This document shows positions 36,733 through 38,441 of a stretch of DNA of 64,000 nucleotides, in pieces (positions within the stretch are counted from its first letter, which is position 1; every line of letters begins with the position of its first letter). A program made the translations under genes and the position numbers. The notes under the pieces were generated by a model. That model had not been told where the DNA came from and did not search any database. It saw only the letters and a list, made by a program, of their open reading frames with translations. Source of the stretch: Hymenobacter monticola (lineage in GTDB: Bacteria > Bacteroidota > Bacteroidia > Cytophagales > Hymenobacteraceae). The stretch lies in assembly GCF_022811645.1 (NCBI RefSeq), contig NZ_CP094534.1:3782001-3846000 (forward strand), written 5' to 3'.

Positions 36733-36950
36733 TTCAAAATGAAGATTGGGTGAGGTTTGGGAAGAAAAGGTAAGGGAAAAAAATCCGGAAGCTCAACTAC
36801 CGGCTTCAACAAGCCATAGGCAAGTTTACGGCCAAGTTTGGAGGTGCAGCAAAAAGGCAAATTTCTTGGCCGGTCAGCTAAAATTAATAGCACTGTAAAT
36901 CAGGCTTCAAGCCGCGCTGGGGGCCAATAGGCCTAAAAATAGGCCTGTAA
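36733..36950. other. Upstream half of a 624-bp intergenic region
   Basis: AT-richer than the surroundings, with no reading frame of note. It holds the DUF2147 leader on one side and leads into the promoter at 36953. Confidence 0.5.
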
Positions 36951-36952
36951 AT

Positions 36953-36982
36953 TTTGAACCTTACCCCCCGCTATTAACTTTA
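36953..36982 (+). promoter_or_regulatory. Strong promoter of the structured intergenic RNA
   Basis: TTTG (36953-36956), 18 bp, TAACTTTA (36975-36982). It faces right into the folded segment; no annotated gene follows on this strand. Confidence 0.65.
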
Positions 36983-36987
36983 CCGCT

Positions 36988-37320
36988 CAGTAGTGAGTGC
37001 TACGGCCTCGCTCAAGCAGCCCTAAGGTGCTGGGCCGCGCGAGCGAAGGTTATGTCGAACGTAAAGAAAGGAGGTACAAAATGTCTAGTAGTCCCAAACA
37101 AATCCTGCCAAGCCTGTCGAATGTCGTACGCTTCACCGCAGTACGCGCCTAACAACAGCTTCGTGGGGTAGCTCCTAAGGCTGCCCACATTCGGCCAGGT
37201 CTTATCTTAAAGACGCCGGAACTGTACCCCAGTTTCGCCGCTTGGTAAGATTTGAAGGATTAGATGCCCGGTTTGCCCAGCCGCCCTTTAGTGGGACGGC
37301 AGAGGCAGGCCGGGCATCGC
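36988..37320 (+). ncRNA. Candidate structured RNA carrying a mini-ORF
   Basis: About 330 nt after the promoter with several hairpins: AGCA...TGCT around CCCTAAGG (37014-37030); GGGTAGC/GCTGCCC around TCCTAAG (about 37165-37186); a long imperfect stem CTTATC...GTAAG (about 37201-37250) with loop TACCCC; and a final stem GATGCCCGG/CCGGGCATC (37264-37319). Two loops share CCTAAGG. It does not match tmRNA (no start GGGGC or T-loop end), RNase P or SRP RNA as far as I can see. Ends are inferred. Confidence 0.5.
37081..37152 (+). CDS. 23-residue peptide with perfect Shine-Dalgarno
   Basis: AAAGGAGGT at 37067-37075, complementary to the 16S tail, sits 6 nt before an ATG that opens 23 codons (MSSSPKQI to RFTAVRA, TAA at 37150). 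The peptide is Ser-rich and basic, with no membrane helix. In this phylum such a ribosome site is rare, since the anti-Shine-Dalgarno is normally masked. It may be a leader peptide, a real small protein, or a ribosome-binding decoy inside the RNA. Confidence 0.5.
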   Translation: MSSSPKQILPSLSNVVRFTAVRA

Positions 37321-37356
37321 TGCGTTTGCGCCATTGAAGTTTGACGCCAAACCCGC

Positions 37357-38310
37357 TTAGCGTGCCGTGCGCTTGTGAGTAGCGGCTTTGGGCCTGGGGA
37401 CCGGCTTACTCACCTTCTTTGTCATGGCTTTTTTCACAGGCGCTTTCTTAGCAACGGTCTTCGTTTTCACTGCTGCCTTCTTTACCGATGCCTTCTTTTT
37501 GGTGGGTGCCTTGGCTGCTACCGTCGCTTTGCGTGCCGCTGGCTTTCTAGCAGCGGTGCGCTTGCGCGAAGTAGTTGATGCCGTTGGTCTGGCGGACTTT
37601 TTGGTTGGCAGTTTCTGCGGCAGGGCGGGGGCCACCACGGTTTCTGGCGCCTCCACGGGCACGGCCGGTACTGGCAGCGCGGCCACGGCGGCTTTGCGTG
37701 GGGTGGTGGGTTCGGGCCGGGGGCGGGCGGTAGCTACCTCATTAGTACCCAGCACGCGCCGCACCTGCATGAAGCGCCGCTCGTAGTCGGAATTTTCTAC
37801 TTGGTTCACTTTTACGAAGGGCTCGCGGCGCGACGAGGAGGCGTGCACGAAGCGCAAGGGCACCTCGCCCCGCCGGGAAATGACGATGCCCGCGTGCCCT
37901 GGCGTGCTGCTGGTGCTAGCCGTGCCGGTAAACACCACAATGTCGCCGGGCTGGGCCTCGGCGCGCGGCACGGGTCGGCCCACGTCGATGAGCAGGGCCG
38001 TGGAGTGTGGCACGGCCACCCCAAAACGCGCAAACGTGTACATAATGAACCCCGAGCAGTCGAAACCGGTGAGGGGCGAGGTGCCGGCATACACGTAGGG
38101 CGTACCGCGCTGCGCCAGTCCGAAGGCCACCACGCTATCGGCGCGGGCGGCCAAGCCCGGGCGCGGCCCCTCGCGCAGGCTGGCGAAGGTCGAAGTGGTG
38201 GCTGGCGGAGCTTGTACGGCCTTTGGTTGGGCCGCGCGGTGGCCGAGGCGCGGGAGCACCAGCACCATCAGGGCCACCAGCCCGGCAAAAGCCATCCATA
38301 TAAAGCGCAT
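37357..38310 (-). CDS. NlpC/P60 (C40) hydrolase with histone-like basic tail
   Basis: 317 residues from ATG 38310. N-terminal membrane/signal segment (MAFAGLVALMVLVLP). The NlpC/P60 domain shows GTPYVYAGTSPLTGFDCSGF (catalytic Cys), PGHAGIVIS (His) and FVHASSS. The last ~130 residues are Lys/Ala/Pro/Thr-rich (TKKKASVKKAAVKTKTVAKK), like histone H1 tails, interrupted only by an Ala/Pro linker. The enzyme should cleave peptidoglycan stem peptides; the tail could bind wall polymers, DNA or acidic polysaccharide. Confidence 0.9.
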   Translation of the reverse strand: MRFIWMAFAGLVALMVLVLPRLGHRAAQPKAVQAPPATTSTFASLREGPRPGLAARADSVVAFGLAQRGTPYVYAGTSPLTGFDCSGFIMYTFARFGVAVPHSTALLIDVGRPVPRAEAQPGDIVVFTGTASTSSTPGHAGIVISRRGEVPLRFVHASSSRREPFVKVNQVENSDYERRFMQVRRVLGTNEVATARPRPEPTTPRKAAVAALPVPAVPVEAPETVVAPALPQKLPTKKSARPTASTTSRKRTAARKPAARKATVAAKAPTKKKASVKKAAVKTKTVAKKAPVKKAMTKKVSKPVPRPKAATHKRTAR

Positions 38311-38441
38311 AAACAAGTAAGTATCGGTTGGGGCGGCTCAGTTTAGAACCACCTTGGCTCCTAACGGTGCGGCCGTGCGTTGGGTTGGAGCCGGCGGCGG
38401 GGGCGTATTTTGCAGGCTCGAATTATTTCACAACGTTGTCA

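Follow-up and report, generated by a model that had tools for sequence, protein, structure and literature searches.

SgrS/SgrT, RNAIII, and Spot 42 are dual-function small RNAs of other bacteria. In Bacteroidia, the anti-Shine-Dalgarno (anti-SD) sequence is reported to be concealed behind bS21, bS18, and bS6, and the phylum mostly avoids SD sequences; the case in which an extended SD is documented is rpsU, where it is sensed by specialised ribosomes (McNutt et al. 2023, PMC9976891). According to the same paper, bS21-less ribosomes favour the extended-SD mRNA of rpsU, Tyr54 is a named residue of bS21, and about 20% of Cytophagales, mainly Cyclobacteriaceae, have an extended-SD rpsU. Neither Hymenobacter nor an sRNA is mentioned in PMC9976891.

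The window analysed here is a stretch of 64,000 nucleotides from Hymenobacter monticola (contig NZ_CP094534.1, positions 3,782,001 to 3,846,000). A sequence-only reading of the window had described a 624-bp gene-free gap, and the gene ends bear this out: the gap (36733-37356) lies between the start of a DUF2147 gene (36732) and the stop of an NlpC/P60 gene (37357) and holds a single element on the plus strand. The promoter and the 23-codon frame of that reading are found in place as well (Table 1). The reading preferred here, with a probability of about 45%, is that the element is a translated regulatory RNA, stand-alone, vertically inherited, and about 345 nt long, whose mini-ORF of 20-23 codons would be read by ribosomes with a free anti-SD (bS21-less ribosomes), this reading opening a long-range helix.

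Table 1. Features of the element in the gap (window coordinates).
Feature	Coordinates	Strand	Evidence or details
Promoter	36953..36982	+	TTTG (-33) 36953-36956, 18-nt spacer, TAACTTTA (-7) 36975-36982
Whole RNA as aligned	36984..37329	+	Alignment A1 (47 loci), fold z, covariation; about 345 nt
5′-terminal hairpin GUAGYGAGUGCUAC	36990..37003	+	Helix 1, 100% of cells paired
Second 5′ stem-loop with first CCTAAGG	37006..37049	+	Helices 2 and 3, four pairs changed on both sides
Extended Shine-Dalgarno AGAAAGGAGGT	37065..37075	+	11-nt exact complement of 16S tail ACCUCCUUUCU
23-codon ORF MSSSPKQILPSLSNVVRFTAVRA and stop TAA (37150-37152)	37081..37152	+	20-23 codons in 88/88 loci
Long-range helix, 5′ strand (ORF codons 3-11)	37089..37113	+	Consensus fold, helices 5 and 6, cross-group pairing
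Hairpin within ORF 3′ half	37126..37144	+	Helix 7, columns 148/162: A-U 24, C-G 20, U-A 3
Long-range helix, 3′ strand (GCUUGGUAAGAUUUGAAGGAUUA)	37240..37262	+	Consensus fold, covariation analysis, cross-group pairing
3′ terminator-like hairpin GATGCCCGG...CCGGGCATC	37263..37318	+	Helices 11-13 of covariation analysis

One strong copy of the RNA was found in each of the 79 sampled genomes of the window's family. By blastn, the element occurs once in its own genome and in 36/36 other genomes of the genus (37/37 with its own included), and its 40-nt core is present in 2/22 genomes of other families of the order. Five sequences of this core were made into a primary-sequence model. Among 390 genomes of the order, the model matched 109 at E up to 0.05, comprising 47/47 of the same genus, 30/32 from the remaining genera of the family, and 32 from other families. 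The 30 same-family matches outside the genus were read, and 10 of them, although scoring only E 0.009-0.04, contain SD, ORF, and 3′ strand alike; blastn with a closer query recovered the two same-family genomes that the model had missed. Second matches within a genome were weak among the matches listed.

Beyond the family, but within the order, the RNA was accepted in nine genomes from three families (seven of f5 and one each of f17 and f20). The remaining 23 of the 32 other-family model matches were not accepted: G128 and G221 lacked the architecture on reading, the match in G172 lies inside an ORF, and 20 (best E 0.004-0.04) were taken as noise on score. Sequence-pattern matches in G172 and G241 were likewise dropped, as they fall inside ORFs, and one f5 genome (G144, 72% complete) had no match to the earlier sequence pattern. 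Outside the order, no model match better than E 0.001 was obtained in 395 genomes of the phylum, and those obtained were taken as noise. Plasmid and phage records gave no match to the RNA; twelve viral contigs matching the SD-ATGTCTAGT pattern were set aside, the ORF having 82-547 codons in ten of them and 5 and 14 codons in the other two.

With regard to the neighbouring genes, the DUF2147 gene is divergent and the NlpC/P60 gene convergent in the window (Pfam covered the proteins of the window alone), so that the gene following the RNA is oriented against it. At the loci of lineage groups g23, g24, g25, and g105, visual inspection identified DUF2147 upstream and NlpC/P60 downstream, with one extra gene inserted in g23 and g105; in this comparison, the ORF calls of g104 were ambiguous and ORF positions alone were used within the window's genus. 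These shared flanks point to vertical inheritance of the RNA within the family. The f5, f17, and f20 loci have other neighbours. It was also observed that the NlpC/P60 protein of the window (37357-38316, minus strand) continues after RRVL with a tail of 130 residues in which Ala, Lys, Pro, and Thr abound, as in histone H1, and that the versions in g23, g24, g25, and g105 (about 190-210 residues) end at or near RRVL.

The bounds of the RNA were set from the putative promoter at the 5′ side and from the terminator-like hairpin at the 3′ side. The promoter motif and its spacing are present in 48/48 same-genus loci scanned (up to two substitutions allowed). Among 33 loci checked elsewhere, a similar motif was matched in those of g104, g24, g25, and g105, and the same pattern was unmatched in most g23 loci and in f5, f17, and f20. 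A run of at least four consecutive T follows the 3′ hairpin in 35/49 same-genus and 38/39 other loci (73/88 in total); the window, whose T run is degenerate (CGCTGCGTTT), is among the 15 without it.

The region folds at -154 kcal/mol, compared with -120 kcal/mol for shuffled sequence (z = -5.65), and none of 100 shuffles is as stable. The consensus fold of alignment A1, which holds 47 same-genus sequences (locus L053 was left out, its hairpin being missed by the search pattern), comprises 13 helices, with 98.4% of cells paired versus 32-40% for slid controls. Compensatory changes in Hymenobacter homologues, which the sequence-only reading had named as support for an RNA, are seen at 18 pairs changed on both sides; such covariation is reached by 0/500 shuffles, while one of the five measures (further pair types) is matched by 6/500, in a test in which the structure derives from the same alignment and the shuffles ignore relatedness. 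Visual inspection showed a hairpin like the 5′-terminal one in further genera of the family. The same reading had pointed to two hairpins with a CCTAAGG loop. Both exist in the window, but the loop recurs in 35/49 same-genus loci in the 5′ part and 10/49 in the 3′ part and, on this comparison, is not a conserved feature. Masking of the SD by the loop GUACCCC was also considered; a 5-bp match is present in 41/47 rows of A1, and, by eye, the pair is lost but the SD retained in the remaining six, which leaves such masking unsupported.

A search of Rfam release 15 gave no gathering-threshold match in the window or in the loci of 12 relatives, and at E up to 10 four unrelated sub-threshold matches in or around the element, none of them fitting. 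No description of the RNA was found in titles and abstract openings of the open-access literature among the matches listed, and it is likely absent from print. The structured RNA is almost certainly real and would constitute a new family with respect to Rfam release 15.

The helix that matters most for the preferred reading joins the first half of the ORF to the 3′ side of the RNA. Both of its strands were located in 88/88 loci. Within the genus it barely varies, with one pair changed on both sides, and its pairing was therefore tested across lineage groups (at most six loci per group). Duplexes formed by a locus's own strands average -22.0 kcal/mol (n = 39), compared with -15.1 kcal/mol for strands mixed between groups (n = 1318), of which 9.6% reach the own-duplex mean. 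These means hide cases in which foreign pairing is better, namely g105 when combined with the window's genus, g24 when combined with either of these two, and g23b and g25 when combined with g104. When 45 loci were tested singly, 0 to 8 of 200 shuffles paired equally well. The pairing is found in ten of ten lineage groups tested, by differing sequences, the groups being author-defined (g23 was split in two; f5, f17, and f20 were taken as families). It was also observed that GGUCUUA(U/C) at 37198-37205 could pair with GUAAGAUU at 37245-37252, replacing the pairing with the ORF strand, which would make a possible switch. This alternative pairing is nearly invariant in 47 loci, and since it hardly varies, the alternative helix has no covariation support.

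The 16S 3′ end ACCUCCUUUCU was read in three rRNA copies, and AGAAAGGAGGU is its exact complement; the duplex of SD and 16S tail has 11 bp and -17.7 kcal/mol. The sequence-only reading had placed AAAGGAGGT 6 nt before an ATG. The motif is indeed there (37067-37075, before the ATG at 37081), although the spacing is 5 nt. Over the family and beyond, AGAAAGGAGGU precedes the mini-ORF in 85/88 loci at 3-5 nt from the start, and in those loci AGGAGG stands 4-6 nt upstream of the start codon. The count is partly built in, because the SD-start core itself, as a pattern or a model, served to find most loci after the first 37; the ORF end and the helix lie outside that bias.

The mini-ORF has 23 codons in 66 of the 88 loci, 22 in 15, 21 in 1, and 20 in 6; it starts with ATG (79) or GTG (9) and uses all three stops (TAA 70, TAG 12, and TGA 6). 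Its in-frame length has a standard deviation of 0.8, while the +1 frame averages 14.6 codons (sd 7.4) and the +2 frame closes within two codons. If codons 1-11 are fixed and the remainder is shuffled, such a length arises by chance in about 10% of cases (0.1) per lineage group, giving a product of 6e-10 over the ten groups on the assumption of independence, which does not quite hold. From this conservation, the mini-ORF is likely translated, and we hold this with considerable confidence. As a whole, the RNA and the ORF are well supported by comparison of the loci.

How the parts could work together may be outlined as follows. The extended SD would pair with the entire 16S 3′ tail. Since bS21, bS18, and bS6 normally occupy this tail in Bacteroidia, the mini-ORF should be read mainly by ribosomes with a free tail, either bS21-less or still immature; an SD helix of 11 bp and about -18 kcal/mol would favour such ribosomes. 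As the SD and AUG stand just before the long-range helix, a loading ribosome would have to open this helix, keeping it open or melting it. The 3′ strand would thereby be freed for local refolding, e.g., with GGUCUUA(U/C), or for pairing elsewhere, which might alter the fold, stability, or pairing of the RNA. In this way, the RNA would convert a state of the ribosome into a state of the RNA. What the sequence comparison itself shows is the RNA with its helices, the ORF, the complementarity of the SD, and the missing rpsU SD in the same genomes; transcription of the RNA, translation of its ORF, selectivity for bS21-less ribosomes, and the helix switch are what we infer.

The distribution of rpsU signals bears on this proposal. 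A strong rpsU SD is absent in 31/31 RNA-bearing genomes (best -9.5 kcal/mol) and present (-16 to -20) in 7/25 parsed RNA-less genomes, six of f19, presumably the Cyclobacteriaceae, and one of f22. The RNA-less sample consists of the 25 of 30 genomes that could be parsed for rpsU, RNA-less meaning without a convincing match to pattern or model; G039, G061, G285, G343, and G383 in this set had weak model matches and were judged on score. The contrast is only suggestive, because 18/25 RNA-less genomes likewise lack a strong rpsU SD, Tyr54 of bS21 is present in all 56 genomes (31/31 RNA-bearing and 25/25 RNA-less), and the genomes are related. The rpsU of the window's own genome (L093, C1:1050117-1050275) was observed to have no SD. 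A bolder version of the preferred reading is that, in one lineage of Bacteroidota, the sensor of ribosome composition moved from rpsU to a free-standing RNA. Initiation on its 23-codon ORF would then be possible for bS21-less ribosomes alone, and their passage would flip the helix, so that the RNA would signal to other genes what share of the ribosomes is incomplete; this extension is speculative and less likely than not.

Among the other explanations, the one that survives best is that the RNA is a small mRNA for a peptide of 20-23 residues, the structure stabilising the message and the strong SD giving high or conditional output. ORF length, start, and stop are kept in 88/88 loci, all groups share the peptide start M-S-S/N/D-(S)-P, and third-position changes are the commonest (30/55). 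The sequence-only reading had named synonymous-biased change in the 23 codons as the mark of a peptide, and such a bias is weakly seen: substitutions within the genus fall 17:8:30 by codon position (permutation p = 0.083, not significant), a signal weak because helices overlap the mini-ORF. The conserved N-terminal half, however, occupies the same nucleotides as the long-range helix, and the helix accounts for it equally well, while the C-terminal half varies from group to group (VRFTAVRA, IHLNRELAS, STVNRVEAC, and HLLGVRF). Within the genus, the covarying pair of helix 7 switches codon 21 among Val, Gly, and Glu. A long hydrophobic stretch, the trait of type I toxin-antitoxin peptides, was absent from the peptides examined by eye, a set that covered part of the 18 same-genus variants. 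We consider a role as a mere peptide message unlikely.

A second explanation extends the anti-SD sponge already raised in the sequence-only reading: the RNA would be a sponge or decoy for 30S subunits whose 3′ tail is free, either holding immature subunits or keeping them off ordinary mRNAs. The 16S complementarity behind this idea stands, since the exact 11-nt complement is kept in 85/88 loci, and the earlier remark that a perfect SD is notable also holds: AGAAAGGAGGT-N5-ATG has a single perfect match in the 6.1-Mb genome, at the mini-ORF (N5 spacing and ATG only), and 30 matches with one or two mismatches, versus 13 for a reversed control pattern. A decoy, however, needs no start, stop, or fixed ORF length, yet all of these are conserved, which makes a pure sponge less likely, and the helix overlapping the ORF would be left unexplained; we regard this role as improbable.

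A little less probable still is a trans-acting base-pairing sRNA in which the mini-ORF is incidental and which has no tie to ribosome state. The predicted promoter and terminator-like hairpin of its own would suit such an RNA, and dual-function sRNAs are known in other phyla. Against it, the SD and ORF are hardly incidental, being among the slowest-changing parts: in one FastTree run within the genus, the SD shows 0.5, the ORF 0.8, and the 3′ strand of the helix 0.2 steps per site, compared with 3.0-4.3 in other regions, including 3.4 and 3.0 before and after the SD and ORF. The single target tested, rpsU, gave no signal; it has an 8-bp match in the window's own genome, but the mean z over 31 genomes is -0.27, with six same-genus values ranging from -3.3 to 0.2.

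A divergent 6S-like or tmRNA-like housekeeping RNA is very improbable: the single strong copy that each sampled genome of the family has would fit it, as would the failure of either 6S model to match elsewhere in the window's own genome (RF00013, whose control was positive in 5/14 genomes and not in Bacteroides, and RF01685, whose control was positive nowhere), but the element itself has no 6S match even at E up to 10, and the genome's tmRNA lies elsewhere (C1:2525292-2525663). To our knowledge, an SD and an ORF are not part of 6S RNA. In the window, ARAGORN found no tRNA or tmRNA and RF00023 gave no match; three sub-threshold matches to the tmRNA model (18-31 bits) were recorded in the same genome, at C1:4775198, 2990026, and 1575031.

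The translated regulatory RNA favoured here may finally be set beside the described systems. Like leader-peptide attenuators, it has a short ORF overlapping a helix strand and a possible alternative pairing near a terminator-like hairpin. The leader-peptide sensor suggested in the sequence-only reading is nevertheless unsupported as a general role, because, unlike in attenuators, the downstream neighbour is convergent in the window, g23, g24, and g25 and, where it is co-directional (g105, one f5 genome, and f17), is a different gene each time.

The resemblance to the autoregulation of rpsU is closer. In both cases, an extended SD occurs in a phylum that avoids SDs, the complementarity to 16S rRNA is similar (11 nt and -17.7 kcal/mol here, and 9-13 bp and -14 to -21 kcal/mol in PMC9976891), and bS21 of the RNA-bearing genomes has Tyr54. 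Unlike in rpsU autoregulation, the SD leads an ORF of 20-23 codons, which is not rpsU, in a stand-alone structured RNA, and rpsU of the RNA-bearing genomes has no strong SD. As Bacteroidia are mostly without SDs, a perfect extended SD kept where rpsU has none would offer a second, directly testable case of SD use.

The dual-function RNA proposed in the sequence-only reading fits what is seen, a structured RNA in which a notable SD leads a conserved short ORF. Like SgrS/SgrT, RNAIII, and Spot 42, the RNA combines structure with a short ORF, a predicted promoter of its own, and, at its 3′ end, a hairpin of terminator-like form. It differs from them in that its SD is exceptional for the phylum, in that it matches no Rfam family and its target test, confined to rpsU, was negative, and in that the ORF forms one strand of a conserved long-range helix, an example of an ORF and an RNA helix sharing nucleotides across a whole bacterial family.
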